Of a stretch of DNA of 64,000 bases, positions 6,701-62,765 are shown piece by piece (the stretch's first letter is position 1; each line of letters begins with the position of its first letter). Source of the stretch: Tribonema minus (Eukaryota; Sar; Xanthophyceae; Tribonematales; Tribonemataceae); assembly GCA_017506865.1 (NCBI GenBank), contig JAFCMP010000513.1, forward strand, positions 620,001 to 684,000. The letters are read 5' to 3'. The notes under the pieces are model-generated. The model was not told where the DNA came from, searched no databases, and saw nothing but the letters and a program-made list of their open reading frames with translations. The translations under genes and the position numbers were made by a program.

Positions 6701-9700
6701 GAGCATCAGCAGCAAAAGATTGCATGCAAAGTCCCCATGTAGCCCTGACCCTCGTAGAGAGCACCTAAATACATACCTGCTGTTGGATGCACGCGCCGCT
6801 CGTGTTCTGCACCACAGAGTAGTCGGGCACGCTGGCCACGATGAACTTGGGGCACCCCATCTGGAACAGGTCCCTGCGTGAACTCACATTATTAATACAT
6901 ATGTGCATAAATTTTGATTAATTTCATGAACTGGAGCACCCCATCTGGACAGGTCCCTGCGTAAATTCACATGATGATTACATAATCCGTGTGTGAGTGA
7001 ATTTTGATGTTTGTTGTGAACTTGGGGCACCCCATCTGGAACAGGTCCCTGCGTTTATTCAGATGATGAATTCATGTGTGAGTGAATTGAAAATTTTGTT
7101 GTTTTAAAAAAAGGAGCCACTCCGTCCACCTTTAGCGGGCCATGAATTCTGGCATGATCCACAAGGGAGCGTTGAATGCAAAAAATGAGAGAGACACAGC
7201 TGAAAACAACGTGAATTGCATCAGAGATCGCTGACCACGCAGCGCAAGCGACAGCGCCAACGCGGTGCTGCAACTACCAGCACCATGCTCATCAGCCAAG
7301 ACAGCAGCTGCAGCCGCAGCACGCCCTACCTACATCCATGGGTCTCGCATGAGCACTGAGTTCGACGACGACATGTTATTGGCTAATCCTAACCCTAACC
7401 CTAAGAAAGTGATCGCGCACGTCCCTGATTACCCGTGTCCCATTCATCGACGCCCAAGGGACCTTGCGAGTGCCAGCAGCCCTAGCACACGCGCCGCCAC
7501 TTTTGTTCAAGGCAGGTGGCCCACCCTCTTCAAACGCACATTGCTGACGTACTGTAACCTCACAATGTGGGCTGCCCATCTGCAAAAGCCATGCTTTCAG
7601 CTGTTTGGGAGTCCTGAGTGGCTATCCCCAGCCCTAACCCTAACCCTGACCCTAAGTGGCTCACCCCTGCATGTGTACACACCAATATTCTGATGTCGCT
7701 CCAATGCAATGCGCGTATCAGCACCAAGCAATGGGGTTTTTGCGGCTGGTTTGCATACTGAGCACTGGGGCGCTCACATCACGGCGGCTTTGCGTGTTGA
7801 CTCACAGAGGTTTCCGCATTGTCGCCGCCAACTTATGTCGCTATGATGTCGATGCACTGCGCGTATCAGTAACATGTGACAGTCTAGTGGCATACTGAGC
7901 ACTGGGGCACTCACCTCGCAGCGTTGCCTGTCAACTCAGAGCGGCTTCGACATTGTCGCCGCCACATGTCAATGTCAATGCACTGCGTAATAGTAACATG
8001 TAGAAGTATAGCTGCAGATTGAGCACTGGGAAACTCACCTCACAGCGTTTTCTGCGTTGTCGCCACCGTCCGCCATGCGCAGCAGCCTGTCGCGGTGGCT
8101 GTCCTGTGCAGTCTGCAGATCACATTAGCAAATGCACAACACATGACAGCGTGCTGCAACTGAGTACATTGCCTATAGGTGATCACCGCATTAAAAATAC
8201 AAACAACGTACTGTGGTGAGTACATGGTCTGCAGATAATCGCAGTTGCAACATGAGTGTACTGTCTGCATGAAACTGCGAAAAAAACAACACTTCAGTAA
8301 CAGCGTGCCACAATCAAGCACAGTATGTTTGACGGGTTATGCGCGTGGCATCCAGGGAAGGATGGTTTGATCACATATCAACAGCATCACACTACCCAGG
8401 ACCAGACCTTGCAGAGCGGACAGCAGCAGCGGTGCAATTTGTTTTTGCCATGTCGAGCGAGAGATTTTCGAGCAGTGTCGTGCGAGAGTGGGAAACCCGG
8501 GATGCGTGCTTAACAGGAAGCGGACGATTCCGTGGATACATCCGCCAGGTTGGAGCGCTTCATGACTGCGGTGTACGAGAGGCTAGGAACCGTAGAGGAA
8601 AATGAGAGCCACAGTGGGCCCAATGCATGACGTTCTGGCGCAGAAGGTGCTGCTTCAGGCTGAGGAAGGTTAGGATTAGGGTTAATCTAGGGTGAGGATG
8701 AACCTAGGCTTAGGGTTAACCTAACCCTCTCTTTAACCCCTAACCCTATCCCTTTTTTTAGGGTTAGAGTAAACAGGGCCAGGGTCAACCTAACCGTACC
8801 TCTAACCCTAACCCTGACCCTAACCCTGCGCGGTCCACGTCGTCGAGTAAGGGTGCTCCCGGTTCTAACCCAACCCTGGCCTGACTCACAACCTAGCCTA
8901 ACCCTAACCCTGAGCAAGGCGTTCGTGAAGGACCGAGCCTGTCCTTGCCACTTGTTGTCTGCGGCACGGCATGCAAACCGCTCTGAGCTGACGCGTGGAC
9001 AGAGGGTCAGCACGCAAACAAGACTGTCGTACATGCGTGGACCAGAAAGTGGCAAACATGCTGCGGCACATCTGCACTGCGGCATGTCAACCGCTCCTCC
9101 CACCGAGCTGACGCGTGGACAGAGGGTCAGCAAGCAAGCAACACGACGTCGGTGCGTGGACCTAACCTTAACCCTAAAACATGCTGCGGCACGTCTTCCT
9201 CGGCCAAAGCTGCACTGCGTGCGCTATTACATCCTGCATAGAGCCCGCCACGTCTCCCATCTTGTCCTTTAGATCGCGAAGCCTCTCCTCTACCGCTGTC
9301 ACAAACCGTTCCAACCTGCCGAACAAATTCGCAAAGTTGTCCGCTTTCCTGTTGCAAACGCATGTCGGGCTCCCCACTCTCGCCATGGCTCAAAAAACAA
9401 CTCTCCTGGTCCGTTGCTGCTGTTTACTCTGGAAGGCGCCAGCCGTGCCGTGGACGACTCACACGATTTCAAGTTTGACAAAAAAACTCAAACTTGTATA
9501 CTTGTGCTAACTCAACAAAGTGAGGTTGTCGTCGAGATGAAGGTGGTCGGCAGCAGCCTCTCCGTGTCTCTCCATTTCATTTGCGCACAAAAAGATCAAT
9601 TCCTTTGTCCAAGCCCTCTCTCTATCAGGCAACTTCATGACTTGCAATCTGCCTCTGCGCAGGCCCGCTTTGTCATATTGCGCCTGGCATTGAGAATGCA

Positions 9701-12700
9701 TGGCCTCAAGAAACTTCAGATGGGGCTAAAGAAACTTCAAATGGGGGCTGAACTTAACGTATACGCCTGGTGTTCACTTGACGACTGGCGTCACTCGGGC
9801 GTGCAACAGCCAACTTCAATTTTAAAAACTTCAAGTGTGACTCACCTGAAGAATGGTCTCGTCCGCAGCAGGCCCCGGCGCCAGGAACGACGCAATGGCC
9901 AGCAGGCACATCATCTACACGGAGCAAACGAAGCCCATCAAGTGAATCACAGCGCGTATTGACAGTCTCATGTGTAATCCTAAGGGTTAGGGTTACGGTT
10001 AGGGTTAAAGCCCTGACCCTGACCCTAACCCTCAGGCACGCCGACCCAACTTGACGTGCTGACCCGGAGAGAAGTGGCGAGCAACTGCAGAACAGTGGCA
10101 GATTATCATGGTGTATTGCTGTTGATTAACATCAAAGTAGTGAGTGATAACAACCACGTGCAACTGTTACAGTACTTCTGCCTCAGCAATACCAGCTACA
10201 GCCGTCACAGCGCGCGTTGCCCCACCTCCCCCGGACGTAAAAGTCAGGAACGTCAGCATGCAGTCAGTCGACAATCATGAAGAATACGACCCCAACAATC
10301 CCTAGCCCTGACTCCAACTCAGCACCAGGCAAGTCGAGCATCCGGGCACAGCCTGGGGCCTAAGGCTAGTCCATCAGCCGGACCATCAAACCAGACGCGC
10401 AGGTATGCAAACTCAAGTTGTTGATGTGCAACCCTTGTGTGACTGCCAGCAATACCAGAACCCTGACCTCAAGCCAGCGTCAGGCTATGTGGCCTTGAGA
10501 GTGCAATCGGGCAAAGCCTCGATCTAGTGTTAAACCACCAAGTTGGATCCACAGTTGATGGTAACAGTATTATACTAGTAGCGATGAACCTTGAGTATTT
10601 GATTTGAACGCACCTTGTCGGATTGCTTGGGTATCTGCTCCATCCCCGGCTTCTGCAGCTGGCCTGTCTTAGCGGCGCGGCTGATGTGCACCAGAATCTC
10701 CGAGAGAACCCTGGAGACGACAGAAACGGCAGCATTGCACAGCAGCAAAGGGCGAACAAACGCGGTTTGCCATGTCCATGGTAAAAGTACCATGTGTGGT
10801 CGTTTTCAGCGTTTTAGCCGTATTCAACAATTTCGCGCTTTCCCTTTCAATCATCCGCTAGACAATTGCTGAGTATATTGCAGAGCTCCTCTTGTACCAT
10901 GATTTCCGAGAACACCCGGGCAATGATAGCAGCGGCAGCGTGGCAAGATAGGGTGAACAAGCACTACCTTCAACTTCATGCATTAGAATGGAGAAAATTC
11001 TGGCGACCACAGCCGGCAGCGGCAGTGTAGCACAATGGGGTGAGCAAACATGGTTTCCAAATGTCGTGTCAAGTAGCTTGTGTGGTTTTTTCGGCATTTC
11101 CATCTCATTCCACATTCAATCCTTTGCGTTGTTGACGAGCTCTAGAAATCGTTGAGCTGAGTCTCAACAGAAAAGGAGTAAAATGCTTCTTCAACATGAC
11201 CTTGCAAGGTGGGGGAGGCACAGAACCAGTGTGGAAGCAGTGGCTCAACTGATCAGTGCAAATGTCCAGGTGACAAAGAATTCTTTCAAACCCATGTGTG
11301 CATACTGTTTTAAAAAAACGTGCTGCTTGCAATAGGGGGTGCGGTTGTCCTCATCAAGTGCTGGTGCGGGTCGCGCTGGGCGCTTATGAGCACTCGCACA
11401 TTTGTATGGCGGCATTGTAGCGCGTAAACACAGCGTCCGCATGCAAATCAGGATTGAATGCAAATGCAAGCGCTACATTAATGAACATCATCACAGCAAG
11501 GACATGCGGCAAAGTGTGAACGCACCACTACAGGGGCGAATGTTGGGTGATTGATGTCCCGAGTAATACGTTACAATGCTGCTGTCTGCCAAGGGGGGCA
11601 CAAAAAAAAAGGTGCTGCTTGCAGCACAACATATGGCGTATGATCAGTACCCCAGCTATGATAGCAAGACGCACCCAGGAGTTGAAGTCAAATGACTCCA
11701 AATTGTCGACATCCAAACACTGAAGCTAGCGTTAGCGGTAGGGGTTGGGCCTGCGGTTAGGGCTAGGGTTTCTGCTCACCTGGCGGCGTCCCTGTAGCGC
11801 TTGAGCATGAGGAAGGAGAGCCCCATGTGCATGTACAGCGACACGTACGCGTGCATGTTGCTGCCAAACAGGTCAGACCTGCGTGGCCGCACAACGACAA
11901 CAAGAGAGGAAACGTGTCAGTGCACAGCGGCATGACGTGAGCGCTTGTTGCACCAACAAGAGAGAGGACACATGGTGCAGGAACACACGTCAGTACACAG
12001 CTACATGACGTGAGCATTTGTGGCAACAATAGGAGAGGTCGTGTGGTGCATTACCGCAAGTCAGTGCACAGCAACATGACGTGAGCGTTTGTAACAACAA
12101 GAGAGGACATGAGGCGCAATAACACAAGTCAGTACAGCAAAATGACGTTGGCATTTGCCAGGCGCTGATTCTGCTGTCTCGCGTGAGCGTGGCCTCCTAC
12201 AACGCTAGGGGACACAGATTGTGCAAGCCTCGACAAGTTGCTTCTGATGCATACACACATACGTACAGCCGCCCGCACTACAACCAATGCACGTAGGTAG
12301 GTACTCAGATCGCTAACCCTGACCCCAACCCTCAGGTCAACTCTACTGAGGCGGACAGGGGCTCAGCAGCGGGGCACTGCACATGCTGACAGAGCCGCAG
12401 GCAGTGCTGCACCACGACACGTGCGCGCGAATAGGAACTTAGATGCCCAGCCCTAACTGTACTTAGGGTTAGGGTTAGGGCTAGGGTTAGGCCTAACCCT
12501 AACCCTAACTCTAACCCTAAGCGTCCGTTCAGGTGCCAATGTCCATTATACTGAGGTGGACGGCGGCACAGGCATGAGCGTGTGCCGTGCCACAGCAGGT
12601 GCCAGGTGCTCAGCAGCTGGGCACTGCCACAGGAGAGATGGACCCGCAGGCAGTGCGCATGCATTCTGACACAACCAACAGCTCAACGCTTGCTGCAGCG

Positions 12701-15700
12701 TGCACCACCTGCAGCGGGTCTTTTAGTGCAGCCACTGCAGGCACAACATGGACGTCAGACTTTGAAGTTACACTTGAACTTCAGTGTCAACTGCTGAGAT
12801 TGACTTGCCCTTGCAATGTTCGGCGCACACGTGTGCTGAGGCACTGACGGTGTTCACCCAGTGCAAGGAGCAACATGCACTTGAGCTGAGTTTTTGTACG
12901 GGTGACTGAAAGTGAAAGCTACACTTGAACTTGAAATGTACTGCTGAGTTGACTTGCCTGTCCGTTACATCGAGCGGCGCCAGTGTGCTGAGATACTGAC
13001 GGTATTCACCAACGCAAGGCGAGACATGCATTTCAGTTCAAGTTCAATGCAGGTGATCAGTTCTTTTCCTAACTTCAAGTGTGGATGATGAGTTGACTTG
13101 CCTGTCTGTGACATCGAGCGGCGCCAGCGTGCTGAGGCACTGGTGGTAGTCACCCATCAGGCAGTGCAGCCGTGACATGCCGATCAGGCCATAGTAGCCC
13201 ATCATCTGTGACATACATAGTAAAGTACACATGGGCACGAACAATTTTCAAGCTTTTGTCGTGAACACTACATAGTAGTGATTGACCATCGTCAGCGATG
13301 TAAGACATAGAACGAAGCAATGCATTTGAAATAGAAATAGCGTGTGACGATACTGATGATAGCAAAGGTTTCAAGAAACCCATGTATACTTCGAAGTGAA
13401 TAATGGTGTGACGATGATGATGATAGCGAAGCGACTCTGCAGGCTCAGGCGGCGACTGCACACGCCAACGGCGTCACTGCTGCCATTCGAGGGAAGGCGG
13501 CTACTGGCGAGTGGCAGACAATGGGTTACGTGCTCTCTGCGATTGTGCGGGGCGTGCCCCACAAATTCCATGAGTCCGTAAACGAGGCTTTGACAGGAAA
13601 ACGAAAGTCCAGGTGTACGGCAAGAGCCTTTTGACTAACCCTAACCCTAACCCAAAGACATGAATCACCACACGCTAGTGCGCAGCGGCAGCGCCAATGG
13701 CGTCATGTTTGCCAGACTGCGCGCGGGGGCAAGTGATGGCGCAGCAACTGTTGGGCTTGACACAATCGAGCCCTGACGCTATGTGCCAAGCGGCCCCTGG
13801 TGCAACTGCAATGGCGACTTGGCTAGTTCTCGCCAACAAACAAGAGATAACACCGCTTTGAGTCTACCTCCACAGGTTGGCAATGCAGTGTGGCACCGTT
13901 GCAGTTACAAGGCCTCGCACCTGGTGCAACTGCGATGGCAACTTAGCTGGTTCTTCCACAAACGGGAGATTGAACCACCTTGAATGTACAGCCACAGGTA
14001 AGCAACCCAGGGTGGCACATTGCAATTGAGAGTCCTCGCACCTGGTGCAATTGCGATGGCGACTTGGGGGCGGTTGCGCCTGTCCTTCGGGCTTCCATGA
14101 TGGCCCCAATGTTGCTCTTCGTGATGAGGCCGTGCAGGTACGAGACCACGTTCTGCACCGCCCACACATCCTGAATAACAAATGGGAAAATACCACAACA
14201 ATGAATAATCATTCATGAATTCCCATTTGACATTCATGATGACACCGTGCAGGTAGGAAATCACGGAAACGGATCAAAAGGTTTTAGAGCTCTAGGAAAT
14301 CACGTTCTGCACTGCCCACATGTCCTGAAATAACAGGAAAATATCACGATCAGCAATCATGACAGCATCATGCATTGGCCCTGGTCAGCGCGCACTCTGC
14401 TGCAATAACAGAGTGTGATGCGCGTTACACCCTTGTTTTTGCTTACCATTGCCTCCCGCGTCAGTGTTGCCATATGACCCACAAAGCATAACTGTCATTG
14501 GTGGAAGGCAGTCAATTTGAAGGCTAACCCCATCTTGTCACCTAGAGATCTACGAACTGTAGTTTCGTTTCCATAATTCTGTCGCAGCGCAGTTTTTGAC
14601 GCGGCGCGTGTGGTGTCGGTCTTAATAGGCTTTCCTTGCCGACCCATTTATTTCAAATTTGAACACCTGATTTCAAGTTAAAACACCGCATGGTGAACTT
14701 CAGGATTGTTACTCAGCAAGCAGGCCCCAGACATGGTGTCAGGAAGGGCCGCAATGAGCAGTTGTCCTCTGACAACAGTTCCGCATGGTGAACCTCAACA
14801 CTTGCCTGGTCGTCCTTCAACAGCTCGCGCTCACCGTCCGAGCGACATGATGACTTTTACAAGCATTTATTTCTACATCAAAGGGGGGGGGTCGCTCTCG
14901 TGTAGCTAATCCTCTTGACGTTCCTGTGCAATTAACTTCAACACTTGCCTGGTTGTTCTTCAACAGCTCGCGCTCGCCGTCCGAGCGGCTGTCCAGCTGG
15001 GTGCGGAACTGGCAGAAGCTCTGGAACTGTTGCGCAAGCATGGAAAGAGAGCCATGTTCCAGAATAAAAGTCTGCACACAGTATGCTGCTGATGCCGCAA
15101 ATGTCAACGCATGCGTCAGGGTGGAGGACAAACATCGAATCTCTGGACTGTTTTGAAAGTTCAAATAGCACGGAGAAGGGCAGTGTGCAGGGACAAGTTT
15201 GCAGAGAAGACAAGACCAGCAGTGAGGATGCTGCCGATGCTGCAAAGGCATGCGGCCATGACCACAAGCATGTACGAGAGAATGCAAGCAAGTAAAAGTG
15301 TGGCAAGCCTACACAAGGCTGAGGTCGCTCTGACCCTAACCCTAACCCTAACCCTAACCCTACCCCTGACCCTAACCCTAAACCTCGCTCAAACAGCGGA
15401 CGCACGTGTCAGTAACAAGATGTTGAATGCCAAGATGACGAAGTACATGGAGGCAGGTGGAGGTGATGCTAAAGTTAAGGCTGCGGCATCCGCAACCGCC
15501 ACTTGCCTGCTTTCACAACTCCAAAAAGACATGCGATGAGTCATGGCGCTAGCGCGCGTGTCAGTCAAAGGTGTTGAGCGATCAAAGCCAAGAACGACAC
15601 GCAACTCGCCTGCCGCTTTTTACCACTCCAACGCGATGTGTGATGCCTCATGGCACTGGCGGAGCGCACACTTAAAAACACAAGGCCGCCGCCGCTGATG

Positions 15701-18700
15701 AGCACTGCTGCCTTCTGACACTGTAGGATTAATTAGTTTTCAATAGAATTACTTGTTGCTTATTAGTTGTCAATTAGTCACTTGCCTGGTAGACAAACTC
15801 GTTGATGATGTCAAAGGCCCACGTGGAGGTGATGATGAAGTCCGTGTCACGGCACTCCAGCAGCACGTCAAACAGCCTGGCAGCGAGAGTAAGCAGCATT
15901 GCTCAGCACATCATGTAGCAGCATTGCGCAAAGCCTTATGATATGTAGGCTACACACGTACAATCTTCTGCCACGTACATCGTACTGAAGTGCATGTTCA
16001 ATCTAGTTGCAGGCAGGACGTCAAACGGCCTGGCGGACGGGGCACGCAGCATTGCTCAGCAAGGTTTGCATTTGCGTCTTTGCGTCAAAGTTTGATGCCG
16101 TCTTCTGAGCGGCACGTCAAGGAGCCTGGCAGCATGAGCAAGCAGCATTGCGATGCAGCGCTCGTTTACCCATTTGAATGTCTGGTTTTCAAACAAGCTG
16201 CGCGTCATGAAGCCAGGCGGACACACCAGGCAGACTTACTCAGTGCCTCCTTTCATACGCTTGCAATGCAATGATGTATTTGGAGCGGCACGTCATAAGC
16301 AGCACCGCTCAACAAACCTCATCACGGGCCGGGGCTCTTCACTTGCTTTTGCACTACTCGTGGCCAATGACTGCAGCAGCGGCGACCACGGTTATTGGTG
16401 GTGGAAGGCACTTGCGGCTGACCATCCCTTGTCGCCTAGAGCTCTACGATCTTTTGATTCGTTTTTCGTTCAGAAAAGCATTGTTTGTGAGTAGGGTTGC
16501 CAAAACCGTACCTTTTTTACAAATATACTCCGTAAATCGTACCATAATTTGACCGTAAACTCCTGCCTATTGAGGTTTTGGAGAACTTCGATGCCGTTTT
16601 TGCGTCTGGCACAGTAAGCCCGAAGATAAACCTCAGGGCACCCGAAGCTGTGGTCAACATCAGCATGGTTTACGCTACAAATACCGTTGACCGTATTTTT
16701 TCAATAATACCGTTTTGGGAACCCTATTTGTGAGGCGTGCACGCTGCAACCGGGCGCACGGCTTTTTTACACGACACCGTTGAGAATGACTGTGCGTGCA
16801 CTGCCAACCCCCGCCCTGCACTGATGCTGACGGGGCTGACAAAATGCACTTCAGCACTAACGGAATAGTGCTGCAAGTGTGTTGAGAACTCAACCATCAA
16901 GTAGTGAAGAAATGAATGAAGTTCAGAAGTACCTTGGATGCTCGAGCATCCAAATCTAATGCTGATAATTCATTGACGACAATCCCTCACCCGCAATTCG
17001 AACCTTCACATGTCAAGTACAGTAGTGAACACAGGAACAGGTTGAGGTACTTTTGGTTGTTAGAGTATAAGGATTTGTTGATGAGAATTTCTCACCTGCA
17101 GTAGTTGGCCCACGCCTCAAAGCGGTCGTGGATGGTGATCTTGAGGTGCACATTCATGTGGCGCAACCGCATCTCGCTGCAAGAGTAAGGGTACAAGTCA
17201 AGACTCGGATTGAGACTCTAGTGTGATAACGAGCTCGAGACAATGCCAGCCACGCACTCCTATGGCGAGAATGAACCATACACCACATCACATGCAACCT
17301 TTATGATCACAACGCAACTATGATCATTCATGTGGCGCAACCGCATCTCGCTGCAGAACCATGAGTACAAGTCAAGACTCGGATTGAGACTCTAGTGTGA
17401 TCATGAGCTCGAGTCAAAATGCCAGCTGCGCATGCCCTTGCTGAGCATCCACACACTCGCCACATCACATGCAACCTTTGTGATCACAACACGACTGCGC
17501 TCATTCATGTGGCGCAAGCGCATCTTGCTGCGGTGCCGTGCACGACCAAACACGACTCTGAGCAAGACTCAAACTTGAGAGTGGGCTCCAGGTGGTACAT
17601 GCGCATGACGTATCGCGCACTTGCAGGACACGTCAAAAACGAAGAAAAGAAACACTCCCACATAGTAAATGCAGCTCCCTGCGGTGTCCTAACCCTAACC
17701 CTAACTCTAATGCTCACCCTTCATGCTGCCTACACTCTTCGAAGCATGCACACCATAGTACATTGCAGGTCCTGTCAAACAGCCGCTTTGCATAATGATG
17801 GAAGAAAGGATGATGGACGATGCCAGCCTTAAAAGTGTGAGTGCAAAATTGCCCCCGGGTAATGTGCACACTGGAAGCATATTGAAGTTCACCTGTCGAA
17901 CTGAAAGAAGATCTGATCGTCACCTCTAGAGGTGCGGTGCAAATTTGCGCCGCGTACTGTGTAGTGATATAATGGCATATTTAAGTTGAAGTTCACATGT
18001 GGAACTGAGATAAGAAGTAATCGTCGCCACTAATTAGAGGTGTTGTGCAAATTTGCACCGCATGTTGTGCACACTAGAAGCATACTCGAGTTCACCTGTA
18101 GAACTGCAGGAAGATCTGATCCTCGCCGCATTGGTTTGAGATGACATCCGCAGCAGGCCAAGGGCCGATCTTGTAGTAGTCATCGCTGCAAGCGGTCGAC
18201 ATCCAATCCAGAGACAGAAGTGGAGAAGAGCAGCCAATCAGAAGCCGGCAAATAAACGGCATGAGGCTCGCAGCAGCAGCGGGCGCAGGGCGATGCAATG
18301 TAGAATATTCACAAATACAAGCCGCAATTGACCGAAAAAAGGCCAGCAGACATCTCTGATGTCACTAGGGTAGTTCAGATGTACTGAGAGTGTACACTGC
18401 GCATCCTGGCTGTACTGCCATGTGTACTGTCAGTGGACGGCCCTGTAGCCATGGTGCACTGGCACGCCAACATTCACGACGCTTGAACCGTCTGTGTATC
18501 TGTGGAAAGTAAGCCGCTACGTCCACAACACTGTGCGAGCATCATCACCGCCTGTTGAGCATCGCCAACACCTTCTGAGCATCACCAACGCCGCCAGCTT
18601 CTGAGCATCACCACTACTGTCTGAGCATCACCAAAACTGTCTGATGAGCATCACCAACACTCACACCGTGTAAGCATCACCAACATCTGCTGAGCATCAA

Positions 18701-21359
18701 TGACCTCTGCCCGTGCCCACATACTGCAAGTCCCTGCTGAGCATCACCAATACTGCCTGAGCATCACCAACACAAACAATGTATGAGCATCACAGACACG
18801 TTCTGGCCTCCACCCGTGCCCACAAACTGCAAGTCTCTGCCCGACTGGCGTTGCGCTAGTCAGTTCTGCGCGCGTGAGCAGCTCAGTAAACTCTATACAG
18901 CTGCCCACATCAAGACTGGCGTATTAGAGTTACGGCATAAGGCTATTTTACATGAACCCTGAACCCTAGACCCAAGGTTTTCTGCCGCAGCGCAGTAAAC
19001 TCAGCACACCTGCCCACATCTACTGAGTGCAAGACTGGCATGTTAGAGTTACGGTATAAGGCTCGAACGCTAAAAAGCTTGCACACAGAAGTCTTTTTGC
19101 CTACTGTGGATATGGTGGCACTGTTTGACTCGTGGCAAATGACTGCAGCAGCGGCGACCGCGGAAATTGGTGGAAGGCACTTGCAGCTAACCATCCCTTT
19201 TCACCACAGCTGTACGATCTTTTGATTCGTTTTTCATAAGGCTATTGTACCCGAACCCTGAACCCTAGTCCCAAGGTTTCTGCCAAATGCAAGGTTCTGC
19301 TGTGACTTCAGCATATAGAAGTATAATGTCTATACAAACATACAGGAGTGCCCGCCATTGTCCGCCGGTGCACGGTGGTTGACATTTTGCTGTTTGCAGT
19401 TGCCGAGAAGCCCGGGCCAGAGCGTGCTGCTTGAGTCAGGACTTGTCTGACTGTGTGACAATCTGCAGTTGGCGAGTATGTCTAAGCTGATCCAAAATCA
19501 ACTGCCATCAGCACTCTTCTGGCAGATGGCTTGCCAATGAAGACAAACAGCTCTGTCGCTGATATGAGGCTGTAACTGAGCGCTGCTGCATGAGCATCAG
19601 CACAGTGCTCAGTTAGCCCCAACCCTAGGCCTCCACAAACTTGGGGCGCCTTCCCCAAGCCTGCACGGATGCAGTGCCTCCACGTTTTGAGCATTGTGTT
19701 ATATGCAGCAGATGTCCAGTCGGTCGACACGACAACTGAACGGGGTATCGTGCTCTACTTAGAAGCAGACCCGAGTGATGACCTCACCATGCTCCTGCGT
19801 TGCAGAAAACGCAGGCCCTCCCTTTCCCCTTTGCACATGCCAGGGCCCGCGTGCATGCGCTATGTACAGATGCCCATAAGCATCCGCAAAAACAGCCTAC
19901 TGCGATCCGTTGCACAAAAACCATGGTCAGCTCTCTCTGCACAGTCAGCTCTGCAGCGGCCCCCTCCCCAGATTTGAAGTTCAACACCTGAGCTTTCTGA
20001 AGTGTCCGCGATTTACAAGTTCAAGAGCATTTGAAGTTCAGCAGGTGTGTGGAGCGTCACAGTGTGAGGGTTGATACCTCAACTCCCTGAAGGTGACAGT
20101 GTATAGCGTCTCCAGCTCCTCCAGCTTTCCGCCAGCTTTCCAAGTTCAAGAGCACGTGAAGATCAACAGTGTGTGGTGCGTCACAGAGTGAGGTTTGTAC
20201 CTCAACTTCCTGAAGGTGACAGTGTACAGCGTCTCCAGCTCCTCCAGCTGCAGGCTCCGCCGCATCGCATCGTGGAGGTCAAAGACAAAGTCCTTCACCG
20301 CGCTGACCTGTGCCCAGCCATGGCAGCAACGAATGACAACAGACATGATGATCATGAGCGCTACCAGTGTAGTCAGACGCAAATGGACAGTTTTGCTGGT
20401 GCAAATAATGTGTACTCCGTGAGCAATATGTTTGCACCAACACAAAGTCCTGCACCGCGCTGACCTGTGCTCAGCCATGGCAGCAACGCGCCATGACAGC
20501 AGCTTTGATGAGCGATGCCATTATGGTCCAACAGAGGAGATGGTGTGGTGCAAACAATGCGTGCGCGGTCATGGATATGTTTGCATGTGGAAACCTGACA
20601 AGTGAGCGTCCAGCCGAGAACATACATCTTCAACTCTGCACTTCAACTATTCAACGGGCACCAGCTGTTTTCAGCAAGCCACAGAGCAAGGCATTATGCG
20701 TCGAGTGATGCGTAGGCACAGTTGCGGCAGGCTTGACGCTTGACAAGCCAATGTGTACGAGCGTACATACATACCCCAATGGCATGCATCATGAACTACG
20801 AAGTCATGATGCGAGAGCTTCACTCCAAAGCAAGTGGAACAGATTGCTGCCTTCGCATTCAACAGCATCACCAGCTGCTGCATGCTTGTTGCACAGCATG
20901 TTCATGTTCCTGGCAGAGCACAAGTACCATCGATTGCATGTCGCTGTCCAAGGCCAGAATCAATGGCACAAATAACTCAATGAGGCCATTCGTGCATCAC
21001 GCCATAATGACAGACAATGCCCAGCAGGGGTATAGAACCCACATAGCCACCATGTGCAGGCTGTGAATGCTACGTGGGTAGATCCAGATTGCATCACATG
21101 TTTCGCAAGCCAGAGCACTCACCACGTCAAAATCCAGCGGCTTCTCCTCCCTCCCATCCATGTCATCGCTGCCAGCGCCCCAGGCAGCAGCAACACAAGC
21201 GATGCACACACCAAGAGCAACTCAGATCGAATGACATGACTGCACGGTAACTTGGTGCTTTATCAGCGCATCGGTGCTTCACATGCAAAGCGTTGCCAAG
21301 CGATGAACAGCAACACAGTCGACTCACCCATAGCGGTCGTCATAGCCGTAGTCCCCCAT
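3710..21359 (-). CDS. EIF3L: Eukaryotic translation initiation factor 3 subunit L
   Basis: A non-core subunit of the eIF3 complex, which recruits the 40S ribosome to mRNA in the cytosol. Seventeen phase-compatible exons (minus strand, 5' to 3'): 21359-21328, 21168-21123, 20307-20201, 18185-18096, 17176-17096, 15876-15786, 15026-14949, 14170-14042, 13205-13102, 11878-11780, 10710-10614, 9914-9846, 8103-8039, 6873-6777, 5955-5797, 5288-5241, 3808-3710. They sum to 496 codons plus stop; animal eIF3L is about 560. Diagnostic peptides in family order: KIGPWPAADVIS, FQSFCQFRTQL, GYYGLIGMSRLHCLMGDY, LSFLMLKRYRDAA, MCLLAIASFLAPGP, DLFQMGCPKF, RSYLKLYATISIAKMARF, KRYEKYFIAQ. The ATG at 21359 has a good context (GCCACGATGG). 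Three of 16 introns use GC donors. The last exon is the least certain: it may read to TAA at 3710 or splice on, and a short exon between 5241 and 3808 may be missing. Confidence 0.9.
4400..4470. repeat. Interstitial telomere-like CCCTAA tract
   Basis: Degenerate repeats of CCTAACCCTAACC type inside the intron between eIF3L exons 5797 and 5288. One of more than twenty such tracts in the window, in both orientations. Confidence 0.85.
4499..4804 (+). other. Antisense open frame in an eIF3L intron (unrecognised)
   Basis: A plus-strand frame of about 100 codons with a helical, Gln/His/Lys-rich composition (VVELQRQSLRHHIAAVQEAQ, then LEELLHKHRNKHSMLHKN). It lies inside an eIF3L intron, has no ATG at its left edge, and ends with a TGA at 4802. 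It could be a relic of an inserted gene or chance. No family recognised; listed because its composition is more protein-like than nearby frames. Confidence 0.25.
6849..7055 (-). repeat. Junction repeat: eIF3L exon acceptor edge, 3 copies
   Basis: The start of the exon encoding DLFQMGCPKF, with its acceptor, occurs at 6849-6877 (the real junction) and again at 6931-6962 and 7019-7054. Shared core: GGGGCACCCCATCTGG followed by ACAGGTCCCTGCGT. The extra copies sit in the intron and carry intact AG acceptors. Confidence 0.9.
7757..8103 (-). repeat. Junction repeat: eIF3L exon 8103-8039 donor edge, 3 copies
   Basis: The donor end of this exon is at 8020-8090. Two diverged copies of the same stretch start at 7759 and 7896 (core TGAGCACTGGGG, then CTCAC and ATTGTCGCCGCC). 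Period about 124-137 bp. Confidence 0.85.
8669..8905. repeat. Interstitial telomere-like block, both orientations
   Basis: Head-to-head runs of TTAGGG-like and CCCTAA-like units, heavily degenerate, inside an eIF3L intron. The switch of orientation around 8720-8760 makes it an inverted array rather than a simple end fragment. Confidence 0.85.
8990..9150. repeat. Direct duplication inside an eIF3L intron
   Basis: GAGCTGACGCGTGGACAGAG followed by GGTCAGCA occurs at about 8986 and again at about 9107, separated by related sequence. A tandem duplication of roughly 120 bp with no exon content seen. Confidence 0.8.
11885..12150. repeat. Four-unit tandem array next to eIF3L exon 11878-11780
   Basis: Four degenerate units of about 70-78 bp, starting near 11913, 11990, 12060 and 12128, share GTCAGTGCACAGC, ACATGACGTGAGCG and ACAAGAGAGGACA. 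The array abuts the acceptor of the exon encoding LFGSNMHAYVSLYMHMG. Confidence 0.85.
12455..12525. repeat. Interstitial telomere-like block, inverted
   Basis: TTAGGG units followed directly by CCCTAA units around 12484-12495, so a head-to-head junction of two telomere-like tracts, in an eIF3L intron. Confidence 0.85.
12793..13205 (-). repeat. Junction repeat: eIF3L exon 13205-13102 donor edge, 3 copies
   Basis: The exon 3' end with its GC donor is at 13094-13170. Diverged copies lie at about 12949-13026 and 12793-12872, each keeping TTGACTTGCC at the donor and GTGCTGAG-ACTG-CGG inside the exon part. Confidence 0.88.
13793..14335 (-). repeat. Junction repeats on both sides of eIF3L exon 14170-14042
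   Basis: Donor side: the real edge at 14036-14070 is copied at about 13914-13950 and 13795-13830 (CTGGTGCAACTGCGATGG core). Acceptor side: the real edge near 14130-14175 is copied around 14229-14260 and 14294-14335 (TTCTGCAC-GCCCACATGTCCTGA). The same exon thus seeded copies in both flanking introns. Confidence 0.85.
14497..14574. repeat. Fragment of the GGTGGAAGGCA dispersed family
   Basis: Matches the middle and right end of the family seen complete at 19064-19235: ATTGGTGGAAGGCA, CTTGTCACCTAGAG, then TTTCGTTTCCAT. Confidence 0.6.
14790..15026 (-). repeat. Junction repeat: eIF3L exon 15026-14949 donor edge, 2 copies
   Basis: The exon end with its GC donor (CACTTGCCTGGTTG on the plus strand) is repeated at about 14795-14852, including CAACAGCTCGCGCTC and CCGTCCGAGCG. 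Confidence 0.88.
15325..15390. repeat. Interstitial telomere-like CCCTAA tract
   Basis: About eight CCCTAA-type units, near-perfect at the left, in an eIF3L intron. Confidence 0.9.
15855..16312 (-). repeat. Junction repeat: eIF3L exon 15876-15786 acceptor edge, 4 copies
   Basis: The acceptor side is at 15859-15905. Diverged copies lie at about 16010-16060, 16112-16155 and 16282-16312. Shared core: AGCACGTCAAACAGCCTGGC then AAGCAGCATTGC. Confidence 0.85.
16350..16473. repeat. Member of the GGTGGAAGGCA dispersed family
   Basis: Contains ACTCGTGGCCAATGACTGC, GGTGGAAGGCACTTGCGGCT and CTACGATCTTTTGATTCG; truncated at its left end compared with 19064-19235. Confidence 0.75.
16484..16734. mobile_element. 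hAT-type MITE, copy 1 (element 16492-16726)
   Basis: A 235-bp element starting TAGGGTTGCCAAAACCGTA and ending TACCGTTTTGGGAACCCTA, which are terminal inverted repeats with one or two mismatches. It is flanked by a perfect 8-bp target duplication TTTGTGAG at 16484-16491 and 16727-16734. Eight-bp duplications and a YAGGG-type terminus fit the hAT superfamily. No coding capacity, so non-autonomous. A near-identical second copy is at 22706. Confidence 0.93.
17150..17535 (-). repeat. Junction repeat: eIF3L exon 17176-17096 acceptor edge, 3 copies
   Basis: ATTCATGTGGCGCAACCGCA with TCTCGCTGC occurs at 17152 (the real acceptor), at 17328 and, diverged, at 17503. The long flanks (GTACAAGTCAAGACTCGGAT and onward) are also shared, giving a period of about 175 bp. 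Confidence 0.9.
17830..18185 (-). repeat. Junction repeat: eIF3L exon 18185-18096 donor edge, 3 copies
   Basis: The real donor edge (TTCACCTGTAGAACTGCAGG) at 18091-18125 is preceded by two diverged copies at about 17884-17920 and 17990-18025. Shared intron sequence TGCAAATTTGCGCCGC-type lies upstream of each. Confidence 0.85.
18535..18800. repeat. Minisatellite of TGAGCATCACCAAC units
   Basis: About ten units of TGAGCATCACCAAC with variable spacers of 3 to 60 bp, in the intron between eIF3L exons 20201 and 18185. Spacing is irregular. Confidence 0.85.
19056..19243. mobile_element. Short inserted element with 8-bp target duplication
   Basis: A 172-bp element (19064-19235) flanked by ATAAGGCT at 19056-19063 and 19236-19243. 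Its ends are weakly inverted (CGAACGCTAAAAAG against CGAATCAAAAG). A tandem copy of the surrounding sequence at about 18922-18990 has a single ATAAGGCT-like site and no element, so it shows the empty site. Related copies: 29979-30152, 49121-49284, and fragments at 14497, 16350, 30950 and 51900. Confidence 0.85.
20076..20478 (-). repeat. Junction repeats on both sides of eIF3L exon 20307-20201
   Basis: Donor side: CTGAAGGTGACAGTGTA with GCGTCTCCAGCTCCTCCAGC is at 20209 (exon) and at 20086. Acceptor side: ACCGCGCTGACCTGTGC with CAGCCATGGCAGCAACG is at 20295 and again at 20453, with an intact acceptor. Confidence 0.9.
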
Positions 21360-24600: not shown

Positions 24601-27600
24601 AACGTCACAAATAGGATCATGGTGAGCCGCCCAGCGCAACTCTGCATGATGAGAGGTATTTGAGGTACTTTAAAGTAGTAGTGTTCATCCGCTGTCAACT
24701 GCTACATTTCAAATGTCCCTGTCTTGAAGAGGGCCGGGTGCTAAGCTGACCAGTCGTGCAGGGCAGGACACTTAAACCTCACCCTAACCTCTTGCAAGTG
24801 TCTGAGAGCTGGTGCTGTTTGCAAGTATCGGGTTCAGATATTACCCTTATTGTACATACACCAGGTATCGTTCGCAGTGTAACAGTTGAAGTTGAAATGC
24901 GATGGCGGTGAGCATCGAGCGGCTGCGCTCTGTGCTGGCGGGCTGGCGTGGCTGCTGCTGCCGCGATGGAGCGGGTGGCGGCCTCGCTCGAAGGCAGGAG
25001 GGCGACGCGGCGTTGCTGCTGGGGCTTCGCTTCTCGAGAACGTGGCTTCTCGAGAACGCGACTGCTGTTTGGGCCGGGAGAGTCGGCCGCGCCTTCGTTG
25101 AGAACGCACAGGCCTGTCAGCGCTGCTATCTCTCGCTCGCAGACCTTCGCTCCCTCTTTCGCTAGCTGTCAGTTGCCAGCCATCTGCCATGGTGAAGCCT
25201 CAGAACGCTGCTGCTGCCAAGGCTGTTGCCACATTGCAAGCTGGTGTAAACCGATGCGTAAGCGACAACGTGCGTTGTCACTCTGCAACGTACTATAGTA
25301 GTTACTGTATGTAGTAGATGCGTAAGCGACAAAGTGCCCTGTCACTCTGCAGCGTAGATGTGGGTGAGGTCAGTGCATTAACCTGTAGTGTAAGGCCTGT
25401 TGTAACCCGAAGCATAAGCGGTAACGTGCGCTGTCACGCTGCAAGCGTAGTTGCGAGTCAGGTCAGTGCATGAACCTGGAGTGTAAGTCATGGAAGGACA
25501 CATCAATAGCACAATGTTGTGGCAATTCAGATGCAGTGTGTTGCCCAGTAATTGTCTGCAGCAGCATTGCAAGCTGTTGTAAACCATTTTTCCGTTGGTC
25601 TACAGACTTGCTGTGAAACCACAAAACATCCGGGCGCGCACCAATCGAGAAAGGGAAGCGCTCTCTGTATGCAAGTCGTCGATCCGGAAGAGAGTTACGA
25701 CTCAAACTGCATGCTGCACATGGCTAGCGCTCTAGCTTGGGCGACACGTGCGTACTTCAAATGTGCGCTCTGCTTGTTTCCGAGGCACCCCATGCCTATG
25801 CATACATCGCCTCGGCCCTGAATCCTAACTCTGTCACGCTGCAGGCGGGCTTCGGGCACAGGAAAAACGTCGCAGGCACACCCTGCCCTATGCATACGTC
25901 ACTCAACCCCCGAACCCTAACCCTGTCAAGCTGCAGGCAGGCTTCGGGCACAGGAAAAACGTCCCAGGCACACCCTGCCCTATGCACACGTCACTCAATC
26001 CCCTAAACCTCACCCTGTCACACCGCAGGCAGGCTTTGGGCACAGGAAAAACGTTGAGCCAGCGCTCAGCACGGAATGCCCCGTACGCGCGCGCCTAGCA
26101 CCGTCGCTGCCCAACAAGGCGGGGGCCATCTGGTACAGCGTGCCGCTGCCGGTGCTGCGCGGGTTTGAGACGCAGTTCACGTTTCAGGTGGGTAGGTAGG
26201 TATACGGCGCTGTTGCGAGGGGGGGGGGATGCTGAGCGTTGTTGCCTTGTTTTCTCAGTGACGAGCGCTGATGCTTGGTGGCTAGCGGAGCGCTGGCGCG
26301 GGGGCCATCTGGTACAGCGTGCCGCTGCCGGTGCTGCGCGGGTTTGAGACGCAGTTCACGTTTCAGGTGGGTAGGTAGGTATACGGCGCTGTTGCGAGGG
26401 CTGGGGCTGAGCGTTGTTGCCTTTTTTGCTCAGTGACGAGCGCTGATGCTTGGTGGCTAGCGGACCGCTGGTGCGGGGGCCATATGGTACACGTGCCGCT
26501 GCCGGCGCTGCGCGGCTTCGAGACGCAGTTCACATTTAAGGTGGGTAGGTAGGTATACGGCGCTGTTGCGAGGGCTGGGGCTGAGCGTTGTTGCCTTTTT
26601 GGCTCAGTGACGAGCACTGATGCTTGGTCGCTAGCGGACCGCTGGCGGGGGGCCCATGTGGTACAGCGTGCCGCTGCCGGTGCTGCGCGGGTTCGAGACG
26701 CAGTTCACGTTCCAGGTGGGTGGGTATGTATCTACGCTGTCGCCCTGCTTGATGTGGCCTTCGGCGCATCGTCCAGTCCGCACGGTGCTTCCTGCCTCTT
26801 GTGTGCTTCGGTACTCGTCGCGGAGTGTGCGCATGAACAGAAGGGCTTGAGCTGAGCGGTGGTGCAAGTGCTGAGCGCTGGTGTGAGTGCTCAGTGGCGG
26901 TAGCGAGTGCAGTGAACTGGTGGTGAGGGCTGTGCTGGCAAGTATCCGAGATGCAATACGAAAGATTGAGACATGATTTCATCCTACCCCTATCCCTCCA
27001 TGCCTATGCCCAAACCCCTTGCCTCGTGGACGCTGTCAGACTGACTTCCGCCGCCGCCGCTTGCGTGCATGCCGATAATCCCAACCCTGAACCCTCAGGA
27101 CTAACCCTAATCCTGACCCTGACTGGTGGTTTGCATGTCCTTCCCCTAACCCTAACCCTACCCCCCCGACTCCCTTCACGTATGTATGTACCTCAGATCA
27201 CAGACCACAGCCGCGTGTGCACCGAGCACAGCGACCCCCTCTTCAGCGCTGCGCTGCACAAGACCTGCAGCGTGAGGGGCGGTGATGGCTTTGGTGAGTC
27301 ACTGGAGGACTCGACTCAGTAGGGCTCGCTGACTCACTATTTTGACTCGCTCTCCACATGTGCAGTAATCGCTCTTTTGCCAGCGTATGATCGTGTGGCC
27401 CTGTGACAGCTGGCGTTTGCTAAGGCCAGCGTAACCCTACTCTAACCCTATCCCTACCTGCCTACAGTACCTTGTGAAGGCCGGCGTAACCGTAACCCTA
27501 TCCACTTGCGTACCCTACGCCTAACCCTAAGGTTGGGCCCCGTTTGCATGCCCTAACTGCAAAACAATCACCAGCGTTGAGCCCTCAGTGCCTGTGGCAG

Positions 27601-45680: not shown

Positions 45681-45739
45681 TTGCTGCATGCTCGCCTGCG
45701 TTGCAATGCAGCTCGCATTGCCGCACGCGCAGCATGGAC

Positions 45740-45835: not shown

Positions 45836-46033
45836 CAGTCCGACGGCGGCACGGGCGCGGACGCGGCGCTGCAGCCAGTGACCTGCTGGGTCAGTCTTCG
45901 CCAGAAACAACGGCATGCAAACCAGCGACATATCCAATTTCAGGATCCCCACTGGGGTACAGGCGGCAGCTCATCTCAAAGTGCAGACTATGTGTATCAC
46001 AGCAGTGTACCACGGCATTTTTTTAAACGTTAA

Positions 46034-53648: not shown

Positions 53649-53649
53649 C

Positions 53650-56237: not shown

Positions 56238-56422
56238 TTACTGTATCTGATCTGCATTATGCGGCCTACGTTGGAAGTCTGCACGGGGCGGCGACAAGTT
56301 GCACAGCTTATGCCGTGCTAGACTGTGGGAGAGCCGTGGATTGGAAGAAGTCAGCAACATTAGCAGCACATACCACCAGTTTAACACATCTCTCAGCTGC
56401 TCTTGCCACTCAATATATGAGA
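56238..56422 (+). CDS. Orphan exon of an unrecognised gene
   Basis: Acceptor GAGTCCACAG and donor AG|GTAACA bound a frame of 61 codons: VSDLHYAAYVGSLHGAAT, TAYAVLDCGRAVDWKKSA, THLSAALATQYMR. Its composition is protein-like. Its donor edge is the seed of an 11-copy array in the next intron, which supports it being a real exon. Upstream and downstream exons were not found. Confidence 0.45.
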
Positions 56423-59407: not shown

Positions 59408-62400
59408 TCAGTCCGTCTGCTCGCGCATGAAATGCAGGAAGCGCGACGCATAGAGCTCCGGCTCCACGCAGCTGATGTCAATCTTGCTCTTGCGCAGGGA
59501 CTGCAGCGGCGGCGGCGGTGAATGCACAACGAAGAAGACGACATTTGCACAGCTCATTGAGTCAGACGTTCGGCGTACGTATGCTTTTGAGCAGCGGCGG
59601 TGTCCGGGGGAGCGGAGCTCGCAAGAGCCATGTAGCGGAGGAGAGGATGACGGCTTGCAGAGATGTCAGAATGGTCTCTGAGTACACCTAACTCCGCTTG
59701 CAAACACACTGGCCAGCCAGCAAGCGCGCTCCTCAAGGGTTAGGGTTCGGGTTTTGGGTTACATTTTGGCCCAACCGCTAGCGCTGCTGAGTACTGCTCA
59801 CGAATGATGCGCATCGACTTGGTGCAGGTTGTTCAGATGTTCCGACGAGCACCCACTGGTGCAAATGCGCAGGGGCTGACGGCGCAGACAGCGGCACGAC
59901 TGGCTTGACGGCCTCAGCAACTAACCCTAACCCTAATGCTAACTCTAGCCCACGCATGGAGTAGACCTACCTCACTGCCACGCCTAGCCGAAGCGAGACT
60001 GCGAACGCAAATGCTCACATCACATCATGCTGCGCGGCGCAGGCCACCGGGTGTGCTTCAGGTCTCAGGTTCCTGACAGCATATACGTGCATACCTACAA
60101 GCCCTAACCCTAACCCCACCAACGCCGCCTCACCGTGAGCGCTGTCTCGGCCGCGTTTGACAATGCATACCTGCATACCCACAAGCCCTACACCTAATTC
60201 CACCGACGCTGCTTTGCATTGAGCGCCATCTCGGCGCGTTTGACGACGCATATCTGCATACCCACAAGCCCTAAACCTAGTAGTACCGCTCACCTTGAGC
60301 GCCGTCTCGGCGTGTTTGCGTATGTTGTACTCCTGCAGTACGTCGATGATGCCCATGAAGTAGATCTCGTTGCCACGCCTGGGCGGCTCGTCTTGCTTGC
60401 TCATCTGCAGCACCGCGCGCGCGCGCGTGATGGCAGCAGTGTGCACGGTTCAGATGTGGGACGCCACGCTCAACAACTTGACAATGCCGCACGGCGCATC
60501 AGCAGATGACGATGATCTACCTCTTTTTTTTAATGGTTGATCGCACAAAAGTGTCTGTCAACATGAGCCTTGCTCCTTTGTGCAACGCACAGTTGGATTG
60601 GCCTCACATCAGCTGCCATCAACGGAAGTGCATCTTGCAGCTACTGGGTATGATGATGTAGGTGCTTGCAGCGTTAGTTAGACAGGCAGCTTTCAGAAAA
60701 CACCATGCCTCAGCGGAAGCGGCTCGACCTGTACCCTAACCCTACCCCTTACCCTAGTCTGATCATCTGCGACGCCCAGCGCGCATTTGACAACAGCACA
60801 TCCATCTTGCAGCTCTCATCTACAGGACTGTGTATAAAGGTGATAGGTGATTGTGACGGTGGCTGGACAGGCCTGACCCTAACCCTAACCCTAACCCTAC
60901 CGTAACCCTAACCCTAACCCGAACTCAAACCCTAACCTACCCTTAAGCGCGCCCCAACCGCACTCACATCGCTGTAGATACCAAGGTCGCTGCGACGCTC
61001 AATCAGCCCCCCCGGCCGCATGCGCCGCTTCACGGAATGCCGCCGCCCCATCAGAACCACAGGCCCCGCCCCCGCCCCCCCCCCGCCCCCCGCCGCCCCC
61101 CTATGTATCGGCAGCGTCGCCGCATTCGCCGCGACCATCGCCTCCATCGCCGCCACCGCCGCCGCCGCTGCGCTGCCGGCGCCGCTGACCGCCGCCGCCG
61201 CGCCGCCGCCGACCGTCGCCATTGCCGCCGCCGCCATTGCTGCGAGGCTCGTAGGAGCAGTGCTGCAGCGGCTGAGGCCGCCGCCGGTGGCGGCGGCGCC
61301 GTCGCCGCTTTCGTCCTCCGAGCCCGGCGCAGGTGTCGCCACTGCGGGGGGAAGGCACAGGGGCATAGGGGGTTGGGGGGGGGGGGGGGTGCGGAGCGCT
61401 GTTGAGTGGGTGCGAAGATGCCATGCTGAGGCCCCCCGTGACCGTGCGCACGCGCGCGCATGCAGAGTCGCAAGTAACCCTAACCCTAACCCGGAGGCTT
61501 GATGTTGACGTTGATGCCCTGCCCTACAACACACCATTACCGTCTGGCAATAGCTGGTGGCGGCAAGGGTGTGAACGGGCCCGCCGTGACTTCACAAACA
61601 ATCCTGCGGTCAAGGCACCGGCGGCACAGGGCACCTCCAACCATCCAACTGCCCCCTCGTCCTTCCCTGCTCCAACTTCTACTTCAACTCGTGCGGCGCG
61701 CAGGCACTCACTGGCAGCGGCCGCCACGGTCGTCGCCAGGGAAGCGGTCGGCGACGGCGTGCGCGTCGCCGCCGCCGCCGCGCCACCGCTGCCGCGCGGC
61801 GGCGGCGCCGGCAGCAGCAGCGGCGCCGACGGCAGCGGCCCCAGGAAGCTCCCATCCCCCTCCCCATCCGTGTACAGGTGATCGGAGAAATCCTCCTCCG
61901 TGCCGGTGCCGTCGCCGGTGTCGCCGGCTTCGTCCGTGTCCTCCTGGTCATCGCTCTCGCCGGAGGTGCTGCCGCCGCCGCCGCCGCCGCCGCCGCGCGC
62001 GCTGCCGCGGTGCCAGTTGCCGCCGCCTGACTCGCTGCCCGTGCTCATGGGGCTGCCGGGGGACACGCTGCGCAGGCTGTACGCGCTGCCGCGCCTGCGC
62101 GCGTCACAGTTTGAAGTTGAGAAGTTGAGGTTACAGGAGCGCGGCGCGGCGTTAGCGCGGCCAGGCACGCTGCAAGAGCGATACATGAAGCTGCCAAGGC
62201 TATGTACAGCGGGCAGCTTTATGACAGGGCAGCATTGCGGATACTGTAGCGTCGGCTTGGGAGCTTAGCTTAAAGTTAGTGAGGGCATGGCAGCAGCAAA
62301 CGTACCTGGATGCATACCGATTGGTGCGCGGGCTGGCGTCATCTTCAACGTCCTCGTCGTACTCGTCGCCGTCGCCCTCCGCGCGCTGCGCCGCCGCCGC

Positions 62401-62478
62401 GGCGCCCAGCAGCTCGCTGCTGCGCTGCGGCGCGTTCGCCGCGCGGTCGGCGCCCACGTCGTCTGCAAAGGTGATGAA
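59408..62478 (-). CDS. Phosphatidylinositol phosphate kinase, C-terminal part (5' end beyond the window)
   Basis: Lipid kinase that phosphorylates the inositol ring of PI-phosphates at membranes. Five exons in phase, 378 codons: 62478-62306, 62094-61712, 61341-60968, 60404-60294, 59500-59408 (TGA). The last two give the end of the PIPK catalytic fold, YFMGIIDVLQEYNIRKHAE followed by IDISCVEPELYASRFLHFM, matching the family's conserved FGIIDxLQxY and the final xYxxRFxxFM. Before it lies an insertion of about 300 residues: acidic (DEYDEDVEDDASP, GESDDQEDTDEAGDTG), Gly-rich and Ala-rich, disordered. The catalytic MDYSLL and nucleotide-binding parts must lie right of 64000. Whether it is a 4-kinase or 5-kinase cannot be told from this part. 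Confidence 0.87.
60104..60330 (-). repeat. Junction repeat: PIP kinase exon 60404-60294 donor edge, 3 copies
   Basis: The real edge CACCTTGAGCGCCGTCTCGG at 60291 is copied at about 60132 (CACCGTGAGCGCTGTCTCGG) and 60214 (GCATTGAGCGCCATCTCGG). Each is preceded by CATACCCACAAGCCCTA-type intron sequence. Period about 80 bp. Confidence 0.92.
60873..60950. repeat. Interstitial telomere-like CCCTAA tract
   Basis: About ten CCCTAA-type units immediately downstream, in the gene's sense, of the donor of PIP kinase exon 61341-60968. Confidence 0.9.
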
Positions 62479-62765
62479 CTGCGGAGAGGGGGGAGAAGGG
62501 GGGGGGGGGGGGGGTTGATGTGTGCACATTGTATACTCACCTGTACAAAGGTGGTTTTGAAGTAGTACGCATGTATGCGCGGTCGGCGCCCACGTCATCC
62601 GCAAAGGTGATGAACTACGGAAAGGGGGGAGGGGGGGGGGGGTACATTCATGTGAGGTACATGAGGAGAAACCAACAGCTCTGCAGGGGTACGCGTGTGT
62701 GTGTGTGTCCTGCACCCAATTCATATGTCAAGGTGATGAACTGCAGAACGCAGGGAGGGGGGGGG
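62455..62765 (-). repeat. Junction repeat: PIP kinase exon 62478 acceptor edge, 3 copies
   Basis: AAAGGTGATGAACTGCGGAG at 62467 (the real acceptor) is copied at about 62605 (with CGGTCGGCGCCCACGTCATC in front) and at about 62731. Each copy is followed by a long G-run, the inverse of a C-rich polypyrimidine tract. Confidence 0.92.

Follow-up and report, generated by a model that had tools for sequence, protein, structure and literature searches.

Tandem copies of exon edges in adjacent introns of Tribonema minus and their bearing on intron growth

Results

Junction copies in the window

In the 64-kb stretch of Tribonema minus DNA analysed here (the window, C510:620001-684000) and in further loci of the same genome, sequence spanning an exon edge is copied in tandem into the adjacent intron, and the copies carry an exon part, a splice site and an intron part. 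What is unusual in the pattern is that existing junctions are copied so widely and in one direction, and no earlier report of exon-edge copies was found among the best-ranked open-licence literature. The process grows existing introns and gives no sign of intron gain. The duplication of exon edges, described in a first-pass annotation of the window, largely holds, with the accompanying claims confirmed in part.

The eIF3L gene, recognised by Pfam (Paf67) and by a PDB eIF3L match, occupies 6777..20307 on the minus strand and has 12 internal exons of 69-129 nt each in one open frame, mapped at 20307-20201 (E1), 18185-18096 (E2), 17176-17096 (E3), 15876-15786 (E4), 15026-14949 (E5), 14170-14042 (E6), 13205-13102 (E7), 11878-11780 (E8), 10710-10614 (E9), 9914-9846 (E10), 8112-8039 (E11) and 6873-6777 (E12). 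Joining these exons at the exon-attached, innermost sites yields a clean, conserved eIF3L. The product aligned with the PDB sequence (2.5e-67) over residues 21-361 of 372, and the alignment showed no long inserts where exons meet. A plus-strand placement of the gene was rejected, Pfam being empty on the plus strand and Paf67 matching on the minus strand.

Acceptor copies in eIF3L, all on the minus strand like the gene, were mapped upstream of E12 (two copies, at 83 and 175 nt; 6842..7088), E6 (one, at 154 nt; 14150..14345, approximate limits), E4 (at 153 and 249 nt, with a third, weaker copy; 15859..16245), E3 (two, at 174 and 351 nt; 17151..17540) and E1 (one, at 157 nt; 20282..20488). One weak acceptor copy beyond those first listed, with its AG lost and a score of 23, lies 206 nt upstream of E9 (10690..10930, approximate limits). 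Donor copies were found downstream of E11 (at 124-261 nt; 7751..8054), E7 (a GC donor, two copies at 144 and 293 nt; 12790..13154), E6 (two, at 121 and 245 nt; 13793..14065), E5 (a GC donor, one copy at 143 nt, 93% over 54 nt; 14791..14987), E2 (two, at 99 and 203 nt; 17846..18127) and E1 (one, at 123 nt; 20012..20249).

Elsewhere in the window, an exon near 26028-26187 on the plus strand (first base ±1) has two acceptor copies, 92 and 184 nt upstream (25779..26054), and three donor copies, 179, 353 and 528 nt downstream (26119..26731), the first of which is identical over 69 exon nt. The acceptor of the predicted plus-strand exon 31196-31294 has one copy 153 nt upstream (31027..31222; 93% over 43 nt). 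On the minus strand, the donor of the PIP kinase exon 60404-60294 (Pfam PIP5K, 3.3e-08) is followed by copies 76 and 160 nt downstream (60083..60318), and the acceptor of exon 62478-62306, which is predicted only, has two copies with spacings of 136 and 126 (62441..62768).

Sixteen of the 19 junction positions in the first-pass annotation proved to be exon-edge duplications, comprising eight of nine acceptors (6849, 14130, 15859, 17152, 20295, 25841, 31034 and 62455, with the exons at 31034 and 62455 called by prediction only, without a Pfam test) and eight of ten donors (7757, 12793, 13793, 14790, 17830, 20076, 26119 and 60104). Positions 51185 and 32741 fall in genuine repeat arrays at which an exon edge was not found, and neither a duplication event nor an exon was detected at 56396, so that the PPR gene supplies no confirmed junction. 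Among the gene names proposed, eIF3L, PPR and PIP5K were supported, and L-type lectin had weak Pfam support (E 0.019, far under the Pfam cut-off). At 11889-12157, 18531-18814, 32776-33471 and 51171-51558 the window has tandem arrays in which no exon edge was identified; that at 11889-12157 adjoins the E8 acceptor, with no exon sequence seen inside it.

Architecture and direction of the copies

The copies, detected as Tandem Repeats Finder arrays, are local tandem duplications, lying close together, head to tail and in one strand orientation (76-219 nt between successive copies in 61 of 68). Local self-matches of at least 28/40 occurred at 6.2% of positions at shifts of 40-600 nt vs 0.14% at shifts of 3000-3560 nt. 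From one to four extra copies were detected per junction, fewer than the one to ten initially proposed; with so few copies and uneven spacing within arrays (e.g. 153, 96, 88), a minisatellite was rejected.

Copying is one-sided. When 600 nt on both sides of the edge were searched, 29 of 29 junction matches were located on the intron side, a count that omits a single predicted exon which proved to be a copy. The aligned copy reached the far exon end in none of 46 junction matches. Donors and acceptors were copied at similar rates (23/79 and 23/74 with a copy, respectively), and mid-exon probes had copies in 4/45 cases vs 26/88 for the edges of the same exons. Where a junction had several copies (n = 22), the nearest scored above the farthest in 14 and below it in 6, a weak sign that new copies may come from the edge.

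Excess of copies at exon edges

A local match of at least 26/40, scored over 40 nt centred on the edge, was present at 12 of the 24 eIF3L junctions. Over 81 exons from 13 loci, 46 of 153 junctions were copied into the adjacent intron, several of the 46 in low-complexity exons (e.g. 5/7 in L008), and 36 of 141 when low-complexity probes were left out; the earlier statement that most junctions are affected was therefore too strong. When the same probes were searched in the introns of other loci, a score of at least 17 was reached in 1.05% of 1530 trials, corresponding to 1.6 expected matches vs the 46 seen, and a score of at least 30 in 0/1530, and one family dispersed among unrelated introns was not found in these trials. 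Rotation of junctions within loci gave 13.2 ± 3.7 matches, with a maximum of 26 in 3000, vs 29/118 seen; this control and the far-shift comparison preceded a better, one-sided test.

Within the annotated introns of 15 locus-strand groups, matches scoring at least 17 were found at 45/119 edges, 34/123 positions 100 nt into the intron, 22/121 at 200 nt and 43/347 at 350-600 nt, giving an edge/deep ratio of 3.05 (bootstrap over locus-strand groups, 2.29-4.23). For strong matches (at least 30) the counts were 34/119 vs 21/347, a ratio of 4.72 (2.83-7.66). The excess around edges declines over about 300 nt into the intron. In 12 groups with introns of at least 700 nt, the corresponding figures were 28/75 vs 26/288 at 350-600 nt (ratio 4.1, 2.9-6.0) and, for strong matches, 22/75 vs 12/288 (ratio 7.0, 3.5-12.4); for the 15-group set, three chaperonin genes were added and the lower limit on intron length was set at 500 nt instead of 700 nt. 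The junction totals given here (118, 153, 141, 75 and 119) vary because the filters differ. The first-pass annotation had named beforehand the lack of an edge excess as an outcome that would count against it, and the excess is present in the sample of about 0.24 Mb from an assembly of 158 Mb.

Taken alone, the three chaperonin genes showed a weak contrast (17/38 junctions vs 17/59 deep positions; strong matches, 12/38 vs 9/59), perhaps because arrays run deep into their introns. Copies were present at 9/12, 6/12 and 2/14 junctions of L020, L021 and L022, respectively. L020 and L021 were chosen by span and exon number and L022 because its rows in the table of chaperonin-family matches lacked overlapping model positions; the rows of L020 and L021 already showed such overlaps, so that this selection leans towards copies.

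The loci differ widely. L007, L015, L017 and L019 had copies at 0/36 junctions and zero duplication events in 40 kb, vs 49 events in the 64 kb of the window, and 'systematic', as the duplication was first termed, is too strong a word. Positions with a local copy amounted to at most 0.5% in these four loci vs 8-25% in the window, L003, L004, L009, L011 and L012. Tetranucleotide profiles gave no grounds for assigning the quiet loci to a different organism: these loci correlated with pieces of the window at a mean of 0.42-0.49, and the window pieces with one another at 0.40-0.53. Event density correlated weakly with GC3 (rho 0.57, P 0.04, 13 loci). GC content as a driver was unsupported, with far duplications at 0.568 GC vs 0.545 in matched DNA (P 0.06).

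Divergence of copies and decoy splice sites

The identity of copies ranges from 100% down to barely detectable, as first reported, and fits a continuing process. Decay was measured in bins on the junction-spanning copies (42 of 68). Identity per bin was 0.86-0.95 in the exon half, with one exception (0.75; acceptor, positions 2-5). Past the splice consensus it was 0.74-0.84 in the intron half, again with one exception (0.92; donor, 25-34). In the 20 paired events with both parts measurable, intron distance was 2.2 times exon distance; constraint on the exon-attached copy alone, with the other copy free, should give such a difference.

Decoy dinucleotides were functional in 59/66 cases and unchanged in 57/66. 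The decoy bases were kept at 38/42 for AG and 40/42 for GT, jointly 78/84 (0.93); as this identity falls within the exon-half range, it fits neutral decay, and decoy splice sites appear to decay like neutral DNA. Selection for or against decoys is unsupported by these identities. GC-AG introns are common in this genome, with a GC donor in 9 of 60 training-set exons (window examples at 15786, 14949 and 13102), and copies of GC donors kept the GC in 6/7.

Birth and retention of edge copies

Events at least 90% identical numbered 10 in 44.4 kb near exons vs 25 in 158.9 kb elsewhere, a density ratio of 1.43 (0.48-2.51), and older events 54 vs 41, a ratio of 4.71 (2.20-8.55). The contrast between young and old had a Fisher P of 0.0055 and a bootstrap P of 0.005, with 9 of 139 events unmeasured, and is sensitive to the identity cut (Fisher P 0.055 at 0.85, 0.0055 at 0.90 and 0.24 at 0.93), the intervals overlapping. 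In annotated introns only, the 33.6 kb near exons had 8 young and 39 old events, and the 30.3 kb lying deeper had 6 and 7, respectively. With intron-only probes, the ratio from young to old was 1.16 (0.62-2.11), 1.80 and 2.08. This age structure suggests, and the comparison of young and old copies favours, retention near exons, as in border-induced selection.

In forward simulations of a deletion veto without a hotspot, edge/deep ratios stayed within 0.8-2.4 across 11 settings, some of which included strong insertion in mid-intron; a twelfth setting without a veto gave 0.8-0.9. A deletion veto as the whole cause is thus insufficient, reaching at most 2.4-fold vs the 3-7 observed, and extra births at edges are likely. 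A simulated 5-fold edge input bias yielded frequencies of.49,.28,.17 and.12 for scores of at least 17 at 0, 100, 200 and 300 nt vs.37,.30,.18 and.11 observed. Retention and an edge birth bias, which are not separable here, probably both act.

Unit lengths of 28 junction events hinted at phasing by 10.35 bp (R 0.41; P 0.009 before correction), an idea that arose after the data were seen. The 75 other events gave R 0.20-0.21 (P 0.04-0.06) at 10.3-10.4 bp, with phases about 1.5 bp apart from those of the junction events. After repeats of one array were removed, P was 0.048 for a period fixed at 10.3 bp and 0.48 for a scan of periods 8-13.

Discussion

The copies are accounted for, with a probability that we put slightly above even, by recurrent short tandem duplication that is tolerated outward at exon edges. 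Short duplications, with units mostly of 76-219 bp, would recur in these genes through a presumed repair or slippage step, and a unit overlapping an exon edge would deposit an extra exon end, splice site and stretch of intron on the intron side. Pairing of the site still attached to the exon with the opposite site would define the smallest exon, splicing thereby ignoring the decoys; since the innermost sites would still define the exon, such a duplication should be harmless and nearly silent, and the silent copy would then decay as ordinary intron DNA. Deletions, the presumed loss process, would be lethal and removed by selection when they reach the exon, and duplications within an exon or across a whole exon would likewise be selected against. 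Edge duplications would therefore be tolerated one way only and introns would grow outward. Retention near exons leads as the cause of the excess, yet falls short of its full size, and an added edge birth bias is likely.

Intron gain by tandem genomic duplication has reportedly occurred in the potato RdRp gene. Passages describing the AGGT model of such gain have a duplicated exon segment becoming a new intron (PMC3443670). The copies described here resemble that process in that a segment bearing splice-site sequence is tandemly duplicated, and differ from it in that an existing junction is copied and an existing intron lengthened. The first-pass annotation had invoked intron gain or growth; growth stands, as the copies lengthen introns, whereas the pattern expected of birth by tandem duplication at a score of at least 17 was found in 0/60 introns (exon end matching the intron 3' end) and 1/60 (intron start matching the next exon start). 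In border-induced selection, as set out in passages of its source, deletions that reach a border are rejected, so that nearby intron DNA is retained and introns can grow (PMC9748784). The model is there presented as one of length that omits segmental duplications and sequence (PMC9748784). Retention of intron DNA near a conserved border would be common to both. Old copies were 4.7-fold and young copies 1.4-fold denser near exons, a contrast that depends on the cut; here, in difference, dated border copies are visible and a veto alone misses the amplitude in simulation. Introner elements are dispersed families of repetitive DNA bearing splice sites, whereas the copies found here match their own junction and not a dispersed family. 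A likeness in form is offered by the small tandem duplications that arise at breaks by fill-in and end joining, described for mouse and human cells at overhangs down to 43 bp in passages of one study (PMC8355091). These are likewise short, head-to-tail and homology-independent; they were shown at induced breaks, and the passages concerned are silent on exon edges (PMC8355091).

A competing and less probable reading, which we nevertheless take seriously, makes exon edges hotspots of birth, for instance if paired nicks or breaks form at well-positioned nucleosomes on exons and are repaired by fill-in and end joining. It draws on the close reproduction of the gradient by a 5-fold edge bias, on the hint of 10.35-bp phasing in the 28 junction events (R 0.41, uncorrected P 0.009) and on overhang fill-in being an established route to small tandem duplications, at least in the passages cited (PMC8355091), but density near exons is not clearly raised among the youngest copies (1.16, 0.62-2.11), the phasing is post hoc with a P of 0.48 when periods of 8-13 are scanned, and far duplications are barely richer in GC (0.568 vs 0.545, P 0.06). 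More doubtful still is the broader proposal that continuing duplication directed at exon edges, possibly phased by exon nucleosomes in multiples of about 10.35 bp, builds introns outward and leaves a dated record.

Exon halves are more alike than intron halves, and a conserved exon half might keep edge copies recognisable for longer; this detection artefact is mostly refuted, and very improbable, because an exon-constraint simulation attributed 1.1-1.3-fold to detection alone vs the 3-7 seen, and because purely intronic probes 100 nt away were also enriched (34/123 vs 43/347). It is about as improbable, if not slightly more so, that decoys are redundant or regulatory splice sites under selection: 59/66 are intact, but the GT/AG match of 78/84 (0.93) is inside the exon-half range and fits neutral decay. 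We give almost no credence to the idea that introns were born here by tandem genomic duplication or are mobile introns of the introner type, both of which share with our arrays the occurrence of repeats at splice sites, given the 0/60 and 1/60 introns with the birth pattern, the match of copies to their own junction and the 0/1530 trials reaching 30 in the introns of other loci. Misassembled or haplotype repeats are just as hard to credit, since most copies are clearly diverged, with exon and intron parts changing at different rates, and the pattern recurs in unrelated contigs.

Intron lengthening has usually been argued from length statistics. The additions described here can be seen, have a direction and can be dated by comparison with the exon copy, which makes growth from exon edges directly testable. 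Near-identical, mostly intact decoys that carry an exon part also constitute a natural test of site choice by the spliceosome. As use of the innermost pair gives the conserved protein, the innermost sites would be the ones chosen; exon definition is what would be predicted in such a test.

Exon models and sample

The assembly comprises 158 Mb in 554 contigs. A small model of codon use and splice sites, trained on the same genome, was used to call exons, and many of the exons behind the edge counts are predictions. Pfam searches of joined predictions recovered GBP (L003), PIP5K (L004), Kelch and BTB (L012), PTHB1 (L014), HSF (L010) and CAP-Gly with a GTPase domain (L007); L019 matched WD40, its best model being Prp19, though under that model's cut-off, and L015 matched TauE just under the cut-off. 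Left out of the counts were the short loci L001 and L002, L005, in which few clear introns were evident by eye, L013, which has a bacterial or phage-like look, and L018; L011 and L016 had no chained exons, so the 81 exons come from 13 loci.

Exons scoring less than 20 were excluded. Predicted exons removed by hand as copies were those at L003 5680, L012 8889, L006 878 and window positions 26291, 26667 and 6971; the L021 copy exon 3897-4052 was likewise dropped. L012 90-185 and 16 other low-confidence or plus-strand window predictions, including 31196 (which has a copy), were also removed by hand. Exon 62306-62478, which has copies, lies outside the chained set. Limits were set by hand for exons 14949-15026 and 26028-26187, and exon 60294-60404 was added by hand.

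The excluded L013 (G000:C221:30001-40000) has long intronless ORFs that by eye resemble phage tail genes, and is probably a bacterial or prophage contaminant contig. CCCTAA/TTAGGG hexamers occur 76 times in the window, and many of them are grouped in short interstitial arrays (e.g. 15333-15385 and 60872-60937). At G000:C51:21979-22639, three matches to overlapping chaperonin-family model positions occur within 661 bases, possibly another exon-edge array.
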